Of a DNA stretch of 64,000 nt, positions 2,295 through 45,450 are shown piece by piece. The position numbers and the translations under genes are program-made. This DNA comes from Rugalucina vietnamica. Taxonomy: Eukaryota; Mollusca; Bivalvia; Lucinida; Lucinidae. The stretch spans positions 62,925,043-62,989,042 of the forward strand of contig OZ024875.1 of NCBI GenBank assembly GCA_964017185.1, in the 5' to 3' direction. A model generated the notes under the pieces. That model made no database searches. It was not told the origin of the DNA and saw nothing but the letters and a program-made list of their open reading frames with translations. Within the stretch, counting starts at the first letter, position 1. Each line of letters opens with the position of its first letter.

Positions 2295-2539
2295 CTGGAG
2301 CAAAAGACACTAAATATAAAATAAGGCCGACCATAGGCATCCAAGAGAAGGGAGAGGGGCAGTAGTCATACGCCCAGGAGATCTGTTGCTGGGTGTTGTG
2401 GGTATGACACCGCCCCGCTGACGACACCCAGGGATTGTTGATGTCTGTGGGGAGACACGAGGAGTTACCTACACCTACACTGTCTTTCTCGGTAAAACAG
2501 AACCCGCACGAAGGATCCATCATACACTGATTACATGTG
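2295..2539 (-). CDS. SLC2A13: SLC2A13-like transporter, exon E (Cys-rich extracellular loop and TM10)
   Basis: The 245-nt exon encodes CNQCMMDPSCGFCF, more cysteines and an NSSCLP glycosylation-type site, then WAYDYCPSPFSWMPMVG and a helix ending LYLVSFAPG. The large Cys-rich loop between TM9 and TM10 is diagnostic of HMIT within the SLC2 family, so this exon is the strongest evidence for the name. The acceptor is TTATTTCAG|CACATG and the donor GCTCCAG|GTAATT. The exon ends in phase 1. The following exon, expected to continue with a GPMPW-like start and the C-terminal tail, was not seen at 1-2294. Confidence 0.95.
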
Positions 2540-4784: not shown

Positions 4785-5384
4785 TTTGACCTACCTATGA
4801 GTATGACATGAAACATTTGACATGACTTTTTCCACCAGTGTTGTAGGAGGGGTGTTGAGGGAGGCCATATGAAAACCAACGGCCAACAATACTAAACTTA
4901 TCACAGCACCTGGAAATAACATAACATAACATCACTTTATTCAGCGTTAAACATTTTACAATTGACAGCACCTAGCAGACAGCACCTAGAAATAGAAAAT
5001 AGAGTATTACGACATAGTGGAACCCAATCTCGTCAAATTAGACCACAAAAATAATTAACATGGCTCAAAAATTGTTAGAAACTAGGTTTTGCATTGCACA
5101 ATGTCACCATCCACCAACAACGCTATTTCTGAAAGTCTTGACATCAAAGTGTCTTTTTTTTTGGAGGCAAACAAGCAGACAATCTTTTTTAAAGGGCCTC
5201 ACAAAACCTAAAGGAAACATCATTCAATGAATAGTTTTGCTAAATCATAGTACCTGTGTGGTACATGAGAAAGGGCAGGTGCTTCATTAGGTTACAAGTA
5301 AACAATTTCCTTGGTGTTCACTGCTAGACAATCCTTTGATGAAATCAGGAAATTAGTTTCAGAACAGTTGCACTAATAGTAGTT
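4785..5384. other. Intron, nothing recognised
   Basis: AT-rich. A short duplicated phrase (GACAGCACCTAG) lies near 4965-4990. No gene seen. Confidence 0.4.
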
Positions 5385-11314: not shown

Positions 11315-11478
11315 CTAAAAGACTTCCGAGTGTAAGAGGCCGCCTTCCAATCTTTTCCACAAGGTATAAACCGAGAAGTGTAAACATGAAGTTGACGGAA
11401 GCAGTTACCGCTGCCAACCAGATAGCTGCCTCGTCACTCTTCACACCCGACATCCTGATTATAGTGGCACTGTAATAC
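11315..11478 (-). CDS. SLC2A13: SLC2A13-like transporter, exon D (TM7 end to TM8)
   Basis: The 164-nt exon encodes [20 protein letters not shown], then [20 protein letters not shown], a membrane helix, then [15 protein letters not shown] with the GRR motif that follows TM8. Start and phase fit exon C (AT|G gives Met, then YYS). The acceptor is CTTCAG|GTATTACAG and the donor CTTTTAG|GTAAAAA. It ends in phase 1, whereas exon E needs phase 2, so a short exon for the next helix and extracellular-loop start must lie between them. A TIR element begins 49 nt before the acceptor and another ends 36 nt after the donor. Confidence 0.95.
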
Positions 11479-12372: not shown

Positions 12373-12450
12373 GTTTTGCCGCCAACCATGGCAGATAGCG
12401 TCTCGTCACTCTTGACACCCAACATCCTACTACAAGATAAACAGTAGACC
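12373..12450 (-). pseudogene. Decayed partial duplicate of exon D
   Basis: On the minus strand this stretch is clearly alignable to the first half of exon D. The core (12373-12428) reads AGGATGTTGGGTGTCAAGAG against AGGATGTCGGGTGTGAAGAG in exon D, followed by GTGACGAG, CTATCTG and GTTGGC blocks in the same order. A 4-nt insertion (CCAT) shifts the frame, and the place of the acceptor CAG now reads CATG, so it could not splice normally. It lies about 0.9 kb upstream of the working exon, in the same orientation. It looks like a dead exon duplication rather than a retrocopy, because no neighbouring exon sequence accompanies it. Confidence 0.8.
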
Positions 12451-29393: not shown

Positions 29394-29505
29394 ATGACTG
29401 TATTTATTCCAGCTAATTGTTGTACCATCTGAAGAGAACAGCCAACAAATAATGCCTTCCTTACTGAGGAAATACGCAGCACCTGACAACATACTGGTAC
29501 TTTGG
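29394..29505 (-). CDS. SLC2A13: SLC2A13-like transporter, exon C (end of loop, TM7)
   Basis: The 112-nt exon encodes VRKALFVGCSLQMVQQLAG followed by INTVM, matching the TM7 region of HMIT and other SLC2 proteins (QQxxGIN substrate-site motif). The acceptor is TTTGTTTCAG|CCAAAG and the donor CAGTCAT|GTAAGT. The leading CC completes the Ser codon opened by exon B, and the trailing AT is completed by the first G of exon D (Met). The first 73 nt of this exon and about 22 nt of intron before it are the source of the 95-bp tandem array just upstream, so many copies of its acceptor exist. The acceptor nearest the complete exon is annotated; one further upstream could be used instead. Confidence 0.9.
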
Positions 29506-31038
29506 CTGAAACAAAACATAGGAACATAGAGAACAGCCAACAAACAATGCCTTCCTGACAGAGGAAATATGCAGCATCTGACAACATACTGGTACTTTGG
29601 CTGAAACAAAACATTGGAACATAGAGAACAGCCAACAAATAATGCCTTTCTGACTGAGGAAATATGCAGCACCTGACAACATACTGGTACTTTGGCTGAA
29701 ACAAAACATTGGGACAGCCAACAAACAATGCACTTCCTGACAGAGGAAATATGCAACACCTGACAACATACTGGTACTTTGGCTGAAACAAAACATAGGA
29801 ACATAGAGAACAGCCAACAAACAATGCCTTCCTGACAGAGGAAATATGCAGCACCTGACAACATACTGGTACTTTGGCTGAAACAAAACATAGGAACATA
29901 GAGAACAGCCAACAAATAATGCCTTCCTGACAGAGGAAATATGCAGCACCTGACAACATACTGGTACTTTGGCTGAAACAAAACATTGGAACATAGAGAA
30001 CAGCCATCAAACAATGCCTTCCTGACAGAGGAAATACGCAGCACTTGACAACATACTGGTACTTTGGCTGAAACAAACCATTGGAACATTGAGAACAGCC
30101 AACAAATAATGCCTTCCTGACTGAGGAAATACGCAGCACCTGACAACATACTGGTACTTTGGCTGAAACAAAACATTGGAACATAGAGAACAGCCAACAA
30201 ATAATGCCTTCCTGACAGACGAAATACGCAGCACCTGACAACATACTGGTACTTTGGCTGAAACAAACATTGGAACATAGAGAACAGCCATCAAACAATG
30301 CCTTCCTGACAGAGGAAATACGCAGCACCTGACAACATACAGGTACTTTGGCTGAAACAAAACATTGAAACATAGAGAACAGCCAACAAATAATGCCTTC
30401 CTGACAGAGGAAATACGCAGCACCTGACAACATACTGGTACTTTGGCTGAAACAAAACATTGGAACATAGAGACCAGCCAACAAATAATGCCTTCCGTAC
30501 TGAGGAAATATGCAGCACCTGACAACATGCTGGTACTCTGGCTGAAACAAAACATTGGAACATAGAGAACAGCCAACAAATAATGCCTTCCGTACTGAGG
30601 AAATATGCAGCACCGGACAACATACTGGTACTTTGGCTGAAACAAAATATTGGAACATAGAGAAGCAGCCAACAAATAATGCCTTCCGTACTGAGGAAAT
30701 ATGCAGCACCTGACAACATACTGGTACTTTGGCTGAAACAAAACATTGGAACATAGAGAACAGCCAACAAATAATGCCTTCCTTACTGAGGAAATATGCA
30801 GCACCTGACAACATACTGGTACTTTGGCTGAAACAAAATATTGGAACATAGAGAAGCAGCCAACAAATAATGCCTTCCGTACTGAGGAAATATGCAGCAC
30901 CTGACAACACTGGTACTTTGGCTGAAACAAAATGTAGGAACATAGAGAACAGCCAACAAATAATGCCTTCCTGACAGAGGAAATATGCAGCACCTGACAA
31001 CATACTGGTACTTTGGCTGAAACAAAACATTTGAACAA
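29433..31038 (-). repeat. 17-unit, 95-bp tandem array derived from exon C and its acceptor
   Basis: Units are marked by GGTACTTTGGCTGAA on the plus strand, at 29496, 29591, 29686, 29773, 29868, 29963, 30058, 30153, 30248, 30342, 30437, 30532, 30627, 30723, 30818, 30912 and 31007. The period is 95 bp, with one 87-bp unit. Each unit is about 22 nt of intron ending in TGTTTTGTTTCAG plus the first 73 nt of exon C. The unit nearest exon C is exon C itself. The array lies inside the intron between exons B and C and is free of stop codons in the exon frame. The very long minus-strand reading frames here (up to 578 codons) are a consequence of this and not a separate gene. Confidence 0.95.
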
Positions 31039-31039
31039 T

Positions 31040-31439
31040 CGTCTTTGCCTTCCTAGATACGGATAAACACAGCATTGGATATGACTGAAGTAGAAGATAA
31101 GAAGTTTTCTTTGCTGCCAACAACATGGTGACAATTTTCCTTGTAAAATTCTGATCTTTATTTTTGCCCTTGCATTATTTTCTGACACAATACAAAGGGC
31201 AGGCTCATTAAACTTCACTTTTTCTTAAATGGTGCAGACAATTTTGTCATCTGCTCTCATGGCTCTAATTAAGAGTTTACATGTCTTCTATTAATACTCA
31301 CAAGAGAGTCTTCATTCCTTCATGCATTCACAATGATTGAATTTGAATAAGGCAAACTGGTTAAATTTAACTATTTTTTGTTCAATTTTGCAGACATAAT
31401 TTTTGCTGGCTGCTTTCTAGATATAAATAGACCAGGTCC
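31040..31439. other. Intron between exons B and C, nothing recognised
   Basis: AT-rich; no coding signal. Confidence 0.4.
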
Positions 31440-31652
31440 CAAGGTTATAAAACTTTTTTCATAAATAAAACTTCTCATAAATACAGAAATAGCCCAAATA
31501 TACTGAATTTGAAGGTTTAGAACTCCAAATCCTGTAATTTATCCTGCTGATAAATGTTAAAATGCCAACAACTGTTGGCATTTTAACATTTATGAGCAGG
31601 ATAAATTTTAGATTCAGCTGAGCTGAGCATGAAAAAAGTTTTATAACCTCGG
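31440..31652. mobile_element. MITE-D copy 3, abutting exon B donor
   Basis: Ends AAGGTTATAAAACTTTTT and AAAAGTTTTATAACCTCGG, with an internal palindrome AATGCCAACAACTGTTGGCA. The element ends about 14 nt from the first intron base of exon B. Confidence 0.85.
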
Positions 31653-31665
31653 GGCCAGTACTCAC

Positions 31666-31877
31666 AAGAGAGGTCTTCATTCTGCTGTGCTTCCAGACAA
31701 TTTGCCTTGATACTTTCATATTCTTCCTCAATGTCAAGCTGTCCCCTCATTGTCTGCAGGACCCGGCGGGCCCGCTCTTCTTGGTGGGTGCTGATCAGCC
31801 AGCGCGGACTCTCGGGCATGAATATGAACCCAACAAACAATATGAAGCTAGGAATACCAGCTAGACCTAACATGTAC
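31666..31877 (-). CDS. SLC2A13: SLC2A13-like transporter, exon B (TM6 and start of central loop)
   Basis: The 212-nt exon encodes YMLGLAGIPSFILFVGF, a membrane helix, then MPESPRWLI, the PESPR signature after TM6 of SLC2 transporters, and a charged stretch with MRGQLDIEEEYESIK that matches the central cytoplasmic loop of HMIT. The acceptor is TTTTCCAG|GTACATG and the donor CTCTCTT|GTGAGT. One nucleotide completes the Arg codon begun in exon A, and one nucleotide (T) is left for exon C. A TIR element ends about 15 nt into the following intron. Confidence 0.95.
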
Positions 31878-32903: not shown

Positions 32904-33063
32904 CTCCACCCATTGACAGCATCAGGACTGAAAGCACCATCAACTATGCTGGCCACAAACTGACCACCCGCTACCATGGCGATGTTAGCCGACACCAGAC
33001 GACCCCGGATATGTGGAGGAGCACATTCAGCAACATAGATAGGTACTGTGGTGGAGGACATAC
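32904..33063 (-). CDS. SLC2A13: SLC2A13-like transporter, exon A (about TM4-TM5)
   Basis: First recognisable exon of a major-facilitator sugar/inositol transporter related to SLC2A13 (HMIT), which in animals moves myo-inositol with protons across membranes. The translation includes STTVPIYVAECAPPHIRGR, with the PxYxAE segment and the RGR motif that follows TM4 in SLC2 proteins, then a GGQF..S.VDGAF segment typical of HMIT and a final GWR. The acceptor is TTTCAG|GTATG and the donor GGAG|GTATTG. The 160 nt fit phase 1 in and phase 2 out, and join exon B in frame to give GWRYMLGLAG. The exon(s) coding the N-terminus and the GYDTG-type first helix must lie upstream (higher coordinates) and were not found up to 64000. 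Confidence 0.93.
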
Positions 33064-43904: not shown

Positions 43905-45296
43905 TTAACCACACCTGGCATCAACAACGTCCATCTCTTCGAAGCCCGCAAACTCGTCGTCACTGTTATCATCTGACGCCCAGAGTCTCTGGTACTCTTC
44001 TTCAGTGTATGGGTCGGGAATCTGTCGGTACATGTCATTTTCGGCGCTGAAGTCAACTTCTTCATCGTCATCTGCAGCGTTGTCGGAATCGTCGGTGGAG
44101 GTCTGTCTAGACTGGACGAGATGTTCCCAGAGGGCGTCGTCTTCAGTGCCGTCCATGTTGTTGGAGATGCAACACTTCTTGAATGCCTTGACGATGATGT
44201 GGGGATCCAGCTCTGACCAGGCATCGACGATCCACTGGCAGATGTCTTGAAGCTCTACTTTCTTCATTCGACCTGTCTTTGTGTATTCGTGGTCATCCGC
44301 ACCATACCAGTCGTTCCACTTTTCTTGAAGCATGACCTTCATGGGTTTGTTGACGGAGACGTCTAGTGGCTGTAGCATTGATGTCATTCCCCCAGGTATG
44401 ATGGCCAGACGAGTTCTGTGGCTGTCCCGCAGTAGTTGTTTGACGGCTGCAGACTTGTGACAACGGAAGCTATCAAGCACGAGAAGACTCTTCTTCGACA
44501 GGCCGCCAGGTCGCTTGCCCCAAACTGTCTTAATCCAGTCCTTGGTGAGGGTGTCATCCATCCAGCCCTTATCTTGGCAACGCACGATGATCCCCGCCGG
44601 CCACGTGACTTTGGGTAGCGTCTTTCTCTTGAAGATGACGTACGGTGGTAGTTTCCCGCCATCAGCTGTACATGCCAACATGACTGTGAAGCGGTTCTTC
44701 TCGTTCCCGGTTGTGTTGAGCTGTACCGACTTAGCTCCCTTGGTGTCGACTGTGGTGTTGTACGGCATGTCGAATGTAAGCGGCGTCTGGTCAGCGTTGC
44801 CTATCTGGGACAGGTCGTAGTCATGTTGTTTTCTCTGACGGATGATGAACTGCTGGAATTCCGTCAGCTTATCTTCGTAGTCCCCGGGTAGTTTCTGGGC
44901 GATATGCGTGCGGCGACGAATGGACAGATTGTGACGGCGAAGAAATGCGTATACCCAGTTAACAGAACCGCCGAATGTTGTTATCTTCTGTCTTTTGGCG
45001 ATCTTCTTTGCTTCTTTTCGTAACTCTCTAGTTGAAACACCAACACCGCGACGCCGCCTGTCAGTGACGTAGGCCATCAGTTCTTCCTCTAGCTCTGGGT
45101 GATGCGCCTTGGAACCTCTGTCGGCCATCTTTGACTTGGGTAGCTTCGCAAGTCGGTCTTTCTTCTTGCGCCATTCTCGGATGTTCGACTCGTTGATACC
45201 AAACTCTCGTTGCGCTGCTCTGTTACCATGGGCTTCGGCGAACTTGATGGCTGCAAGCTTCTCTTTGGTTGTGTAAGCAGTTCTCTGCTTCCCCAT
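43905..45296 (-). CDS. Pogo-family DDE transposase, intact, 463 aa
   Basis: A single uninterrupted frame from ATG to stop. Residues about 10-48 form a helix-turn-helix (AAQREFGINESNIREWRKKK) as in pogo/CENP-B-type DNA-binding heads. A second DNA-binding (CENP-B-like) domain follows at about 65-135 (TRELRKEAKKIA, FLRRHNLSIRRRT). The DDE catalytic core has D169 (IGNADQTPLTFD), D275 (LLVLDSFRCH) and D312 (PGGMTSMLQPLDVSVNKP), with 36 residues between the last two, as expected for pogo. The tail is acidic (TDDSDNAADDDEEVDFSAEN). It cuts and pastes the element through its ends. No frameshift or lost catalytic residue is seen, so it looks intact. Confidence 0.95.
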   Translation of the reverse strand: MGKQRTAYTTKEKLAAIKFAEAHGNRAAQREFGINESNIREWRKKKDRLAKLPKSKMADRGSKAHHPELEEELMAYVTDRRRRGVGVSTRELRKEAKKIAKRQKITTFGGSVNWVYAFLRRHNLSIRRRTHIAQKLPGDYEDKLTEFQQFIIRQRKQHDYDLSQIGNADQTPLTFDMPYNTTVDTKGAKSVQLNTTGNEKNRFTVMLACTADGGKLPPYVIFKRKTLPKVTWPAGIIVRCQDKGWMDDTLTKDWIKTVWGKRPGGLSKKSLLVLDSFRCHKSAAVKQLLRDSHRTRLAIIPGGMTSMLQPLDVSVNKPMKVMLQEKWNDWYGADDHEYTKTGRMKKVELQDICQWIVDAWSELDPHIIVKAFKKCCISNNMDGTEDDALWEHLVQSRQTSTDDSDNAADDDEEVDFSAENDMYRQIPDPYTEEEYQRLWASDDNSDDEFAGFEEMDVVDARCG

Positions 45297-45318
45297 TTTG
45301 GACGTGGATGGGTTGACA

Positions 45319-45450
45319 ATATAAAGGTGTGGTTTATTCTTTCATAATGAAAGGTTATAACATTAAGTTTTCTTTCTAATGAAAGGGAGTGACAAAAGGT
45401 TTCTTTCGTAATGAAAGGGGTTGAAAAGGTTTCTTTCGCAATGAAAGGAT
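45319..45450 (-). promoter_or_regulatory. Four palindromic boxes and TATA-like motif upstream of transposase
   Basis: CTTTCATAATGAAAG-type palindromes occur at 45339-45353, 45372-45385, 45403-45417 and 45433-45447, spaced 30-33 bp. A TTTATATTG stretch lies about 25-35 nt before the ATG. They may be sub-terminal binding sites or promoter elements. Function is inferred only. Confidence 0.45.

Follow-up and report, generated by a model that had tools for sequence, protein, structure and literature searches.

The intron between exons B and C of an intact SLC2A13/HMIT gene of Rugalucina vietnamica ends in a tandem array of 17 units, each of which carries the 3' end of the intron and the 5' part of exon C. 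We consider it probable that this array is a mirage-type exon-boundary minisatellite that is spliced out by exon definition. The term comes from amphioxus, in which tandem repeats across intron-exon boundaries have been named 'mirages' (PMC3087553, accessible part). The full gene was read from the window, i.e., the whole stretch of 64,000 nucleotides analysed here, and from eight stretches flanking it in this genome, and exons A to F were located in the window by homology. The features are given below, a slash marking a splice junction; the L005, L007 and L008 coordinates were converted by hand from window-relative ones.

29433..31037, minus strand: tandem array of 17 units (TRF, unit list, unit alignment); the 17th unit is the real start of exon C
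L005:202-649, flanking stretch: exon 1 (gene assembly)
32904..33063, minus strand: exon A, second coding exon (homology and gene assembly)
31666..31877, minus strand: exon B, 212 nt; ends in phase 1, donor CTT/GTGAGT
29394..29505, minus strand: exon C, 112 nt; acceptor TTTCAG/CC at 29505, donor CAT/GTAAGT after 29394
11315..11478, minus strand: exon D (homology and gene assembly)
4795..4909, minus strand: exon E (homology and gene assembly)
2295..2539, minus strand: exon F (gene assembly)
L007:8264-8416, flanking stretch outside the window: exon G (gene assembly)
L008:8666-8892, flanking stretch outside the window: exon H, stop included (gene assembly)

At the level of anatomy, the array (17.0 copies of period 95 according to TRF) is made of head-to-tail units of 87–96 nt, nominally 95 bp, each consisting of 22 nt of intron ending in TTTGTTTCAG followed by the initial 73 nt of exon C. 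TRF, the unit list and the unit alignment thus bear out the preliminary description, which had reported this unit 17 times with exon C included. The acceptor GTTTCAG/CC is found in 17/17 units, with first exon bases running from 31016 down to 29505. Alignment of the 17 units gave a mean pairwise identity of 93.3% (range 82–99%; the lowest value is affected by a misplaced gap in unit 9, which was regapped by hand for the diversity and Mantel figures), and similarity between units increases slightly at most with proximity (Mantel r 0.15, P 0.08). Nucleotide diversity across units falls from 0.126 in the first 12 intron bases to 0 in the 10-base acceptor, and amounts to 0.053 over the exon part. 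A 13-nt window containing TTTGTTTCAG is invariant in all units, with a P value of 0.006–0.014 for exactly that place and of 0.17–0.33 for an equally long invariant run anywhere in the unit; this invariance is therefore suggestive, more a hint than a striking signal. As a repeat, the array is not a product of chance. A genome search found it once, at its own locus, in the 1.09-Gb, 47-contig assembly. A strong acceptor-like site, TGTCAG/G, also lies within the exon part of units 1, 7, 8, 9, 11, 12, 13, 14 and 16; its context is CTCTGTCAG/G in 9/9 of the units having it, and the real exon C reads CTCAGTAAGG at the corresponding place.

The gene that hosts the array spans 106 kb, with nine exons separated by eight GT-AG introns. 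Given a start of exon C at 29505, it encodes 611 aa uninterrupted by a stop; Mya arenaria P0122 is equally long (611). The sugar-transporter domain is full-length (PF00083, E 1.8e-107). Among the matches listed, the nearest proteins are molluscan proton myo-inositol cotransporters: the best 18 listed after the window's own ORF (P0122-P0139) are 62–68% identical, and other bivalve HMIT-like proteins (P0146-P0148, P0159) are 51–53% identical. In a tree of 23 rows the gene groups with Mya arenaria with a support of 100/98. On the strength of these sequence comparisons, the locus is identified as an intact bivalve SLC2A13/HMIT gene, predicted to encode a proton myo-inositol cotransporter and closest to that of Mya. 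The terminal unit of the array is thus the authentic boundary of a predicted intact gene (9 exons, 611 aa, acceptor 17). The exon part that is arrayed (24 aa) has a mean identity of 0.51 to 17 molluscs (the 18 above minus P0136, which was dropped), the second lowest of 18; faster evolution of this part was rejected as non-specific, exons A and E+F being the lowest of 18. Elsewhere in the window, positions 43905-45341 hold an open frame of 478 aa which appears to resemble a pogo/Tigger-type transposase.

Translation of the array confirmed that the exon C frame is open from the first ATG at 31126 through all units to the end of exon C, as reported earlier; the open frame itself begins at 31174. 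The six in-frame acceptor offsets reported earlier (372, 657, 846, 1131, 1227 and 1416 nt) are all correct and correspond to units 13, 10, 8, 5, 4 and 2 from the 5' end, the earlier unit numbers (5, 8, 10, 13, 14, 16) having been counted from exon C. These six among the 16 upstream acceptors compare with 5.3 expected by chance, and the remaining 10/16 lead to premature stops, including the three nearest exon C. As the consensus unit has no stop in any of the three frames, the frame stays open in 30% of 5,000 random rearrangements of the 16 upstream units, and 6/16 is about one third, neither the open frame nor the number of in-frame acceptors needs selection: openness across the array is near chance and weak evidence, and selection on the open frame was rejected on these grounds. 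In the 73-nt exon part, 9/17 variable sites are synonymous in the native exon C frame, more than expected (P 0.011–0.020), and the other two frames tested show no excess (4/17 and 5/17; indels were left out of the counts). The simplest reading is that the working last unit is the source of the others or exchanges sequence with them.

We asked what could distinguish acceptor 17 from the 16 others. Splice-site and branch-point scores were obtained with scoring matrices, the ten best sites being considered in each case. The 16 upstream units score 5.7–8.2 and unit 17 scores 8.2, which is equalled by units 13 and 14; the acceptors of exons A-F (5.8–10.9) overlap the range of the upstream units. 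Acceptor-like sites inside at least nine units (9.3–10.8) and one inside exon C itself (9.5) score above acceptor 17. As rival sites score as high or higher, the choice of acceptor cannot rest on sequence score. Two further candidate causes were rejected: (i) the branch point, as unit 17 lacks a good match, no difference favouring it was seen with the matrix used, and the best match lies at acceptors 9 and 12; and (ii) RNA structure around acceptor 17, as the fold of the last three units with exon C is ordinary (z -1.02; 18/100 shuffles fold as well). On the donor side, the exon C donor (8.67) is the top among donor-like sites of the intron and array, and the best donor inside a unit reaches 5.17; the latter would give a 23-nt exon, and two authentic donors of the gene score lower with this matrix (3.34 and 4.59). 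A chain of microexons, mostly of 23 nt and made of a unit acceptor and a CAG/GTGCTG donor, was rejected because such a chain could not be joined to exon C in a matching phase. The distance to the exon C donor is 112 nt for unit 17 and 207, 302 and 389 nt for units 16, 15 and 14. Acceptors 16, 15 and 14 all shift the frame, and the first in-frame rival is unit 13, with an exon of 484 nt.

For a short exon beside a long intron, exon definition is expected, and the intron downstream of exon C measures 17.9 kb; exon definition would hence be the expected mode here. We propose that a 95-bp segment which by chance included the 3' splice site of intron B-C underwent many rounds of tandem duplication, and that the units spread and were homogenised by unequal exchange or conversion. 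Splicing would use almost only acceptor 17, because this is the only acceptor that would pair across a short, 112-nt exon with the strong exon C donor. Since acceptors 16, 15 and 14 shift the frame, transcripts leaking to them would be destroyed by nonsense-mediated decay. The 16 upstream acceptors would then be by-products of the repeat, with no function of their own. The array is thus most likely a repeat of changeable length that is skipped by splicing, and not a machine for protein variants. That the array might be passed over and 29505 used had been one branch of the preliminary description; this branch fits the intact 611-aa gene and the behaviour reported for mirages, and we infer it here on that basis. 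Several points count against the proposal: all 17 acceptors are intact, neither acceptor scores nor a good branch-point match single out unit 17, the copies of exons D and G described below may not be specific to boundaries, and the amphioxus authors allow that repeats of this type might serve as cryptic splice sites (PMC3087553, accessible part).

We searched for copies of the nine exons in 144 kb. At E<=1e-5, further copies were found only for exons C (16), D (1) and G (1), all on the sense strand, in the intron directly upstream of their own exon, with 0 antisense; codon-shuffled exon queries gave 0 matches in 900. The additional copies of exons D and G, one partial copy each, are the following:

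12392..12428, minus strand: decayed exon D copy, 38 nt, 89% identical (E 6.6e-8), 0.9 kb upstream of exon D
L007:8432-8493: decayed exon G copy, 63 nt, 87% identical, ending 15 nt before exon G

Local duplication is frequent in this region. When 400 intron pieces free of exons and of large tandem arrays were searched for a same-strand partner within 1.5 kb, 118, 103 and 94 had one at E<=1e-3, 1e-6 and 4.6e-8, respectively; in a cruder control, which did not exclude the array or other tandem repeats from its pieces, 113/300 had a partner. As 94/400 pieces have a partner at E<=4.6e-8, the copies of exons D and G do not stand out from the local duplication seen throughout the region, and only the direction of copying (upstream in 3/3 exons, counting C) points to acceptors. 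The 24 nt around the exon B donor (GAATGAAGACCTCTCTTGTGAGTA, 31659-31682) recur with one base missing at 31295-31317, 364 nt downstream (E 3.5e-4), so that the 5' splice site of intron B-C is present a second time within the intron; given the high background of local repeats, this copy is just a lead. A palindromic element lies at 31435-31656, 9 nt past the end of exon B, with 28-nt arms that are 93% complementary and a 35-nt inner hairpin; similar arms occur at 2887 and 11781, and by eye a similar sequence directly follows the exon 1 donor. Outside this genome, two proteins from ENA, P0115 and P0118, carry the exon D junction twice; the copies are separated by intron-like sequence and recur in frame with a period of 52 residues (counted by hand). 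Their exon D is identical to that of Lymnaea, Bradybaena and Littorina at 54/55 residues, which suggests that their source is likely a gastropod. These copies might be taken to mean that tandem duplication in molluscs arises preferentially at 3' splice sites, with splicing or transcription itself copying segments of intron end and exon start repeatedly, for instance through R-loops or breaks at acceptors. We regard this as improbable. If true, it would concern several exons of one gene and different molluscan classes, and would feed intron growth and occasionally new exons. The copies at three exons of one gene and the gastropod-like junction repeat make the idea of duplication-prone acceptors testable by a genome survey.

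Three other explanations of the array were considered besides a minisatellite that is skipped by splicing. The array might serve as a splicing decoy, or dosage brake: some of the transcripts would be joined out of frame and degraded, array length would tune the level of the transporter, and copy-number alleles would differ in expression. This is in keeping with the 10/16 upstream acceptors that lead to premature stops, the three nearest exon C among them, and with human ABCA7, in which the length of an intronic repeat alters splicing (PMC5954066, accessible part); however, amphioxus mirages are said not to generate aberrant mRNAs (PMC3902484, accessible part), and we hold such a brake to be unlikely.

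A generator of isoforms is less likely still. The preliminary description had proposed that varied use of acceptors yields a size-variable family of transporters with 124–472 extra residues before TM7, a proposal that the analysis does not support. What speaks for it is arithmetic, namely six upstream acceptors that join in frame across an open frame, and in addition the acceptor is intact in every unit and the native-frame synonymous excess could also reflect translation. However, both the share of in-frame acceptors and the openness of the frame are near chance, as seen above, and most upstream acceptors would end translation prematurely. The inserts would be 10–11% Cys, with a mean hydropathy of +0.82 to +0.88, and hold 1–6 non-overlapping 19-residue windows above 1.6 hydropathy. 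Among 30 aligned homologues chosen from 193 matches, 29 have no long insert at the junction, and the lone bearer of one, P0136 (an Elysia gene model), has a different sequence there. With a hypothetical isoform as query, the 120 proteins listed of 193 matches include a single one with a long match over the array, P0121, which is the window's own ORF; for the other 119, no best local alignment extends over more than 32% of the query. Least probable of all is that the assembly misstates the number of units, in either direction: copy number of an amphioxus mirage did differ between haplotypes (PMC3087553) and between assemblies (PMC3902484), according to the accessible parts of these papers, but the units carry private changes and indels, and the array lies on a 66-Mb contig of the 47-contig assembly.

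How does the array compare with known systems? A tandem unit spanning an intron-exon boundary, the hallmark of mirages, is present in all 17 units. Tandem arrays whose units bear splice sites also occur in the Epstein-Barr virus IR1/EBNA-LP region, in which each unit has an acceptor and a donor and is spliced in; more generally, every unit of a Dscam- or EBNA-LP-like array of isoform cassettes carries a competent donor together with an acceptor of its own. In the present array, no unit donor is as strong as that of exon C, but the best of them scores above two authentic donors of the gene. Like the array, the human ABCA7 intron 18 VNTR is a tandem repeat within an intron of a transporter gene, and its unit contains a splice signal; the effects of its length on splicing were measured. 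Its units, however, are of 25 bp and contain a donor, not an exon boundary (PMC5954066, accessible part). A literature search covering mostly papers outside subscription found no boundary minisatellite outside lancelets and no molluscan case, nor do the matching passages of a clam paper (PMC4732748) contain one. Among the boundary minisatellites compared by unit number, a set without Adh3 and TnC, none had as many units. The earlier statement that no case is described for this gene may stand; structures of this kind, however, have already been described as mirages in amphioxus.

The closest of these is the BflGb6 mirage, which likewise joins the 3' end of an intron to the 5' part of the next exon (exon 2), with splice signals in many units and a unit identity of 81–100%; RT-PCR suggested regular splicing. 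BflGb6 is a cephalochordate globin gene with 6 or 3 units of 150–160 bp depending on the haplotype, whereas the array described here has 17 units of 95 bp in a mollusc transporter gene (PMC3087553, accessible part). The PGBD5 boundary repeat was added later, without transcript support over the repeats, in a paper that also cites Adh and TnC (PMC3902484, accessible part). Like the array, the amphioxus Adh3, TnC and PGBD5 repeats are tandem repeats that include splice sites and are said not to disturb splicing, and for Adh3 length instability, and even somatic instability, is reported; these are other genes, with units of 10–72, 60 and 108 bp, and some of the repeats lie at 5' splice sites (accessible parts of PMC3902484 and PMC3087553). 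What is new here is the number of 17 copies, the occurrence in a mollusc and, for exons D and G, a single decayed copy in the intron upstream of each, although local duplication is common in these introns in any case. With 17 near-identical acceptors facing one donor, the locus offers a natural test of how the spliceosome chooses among nearly equal 3' splice sites. The array is a genuine, large and orderly member of a class already described, in a phylum that is new for it within the literature searched.
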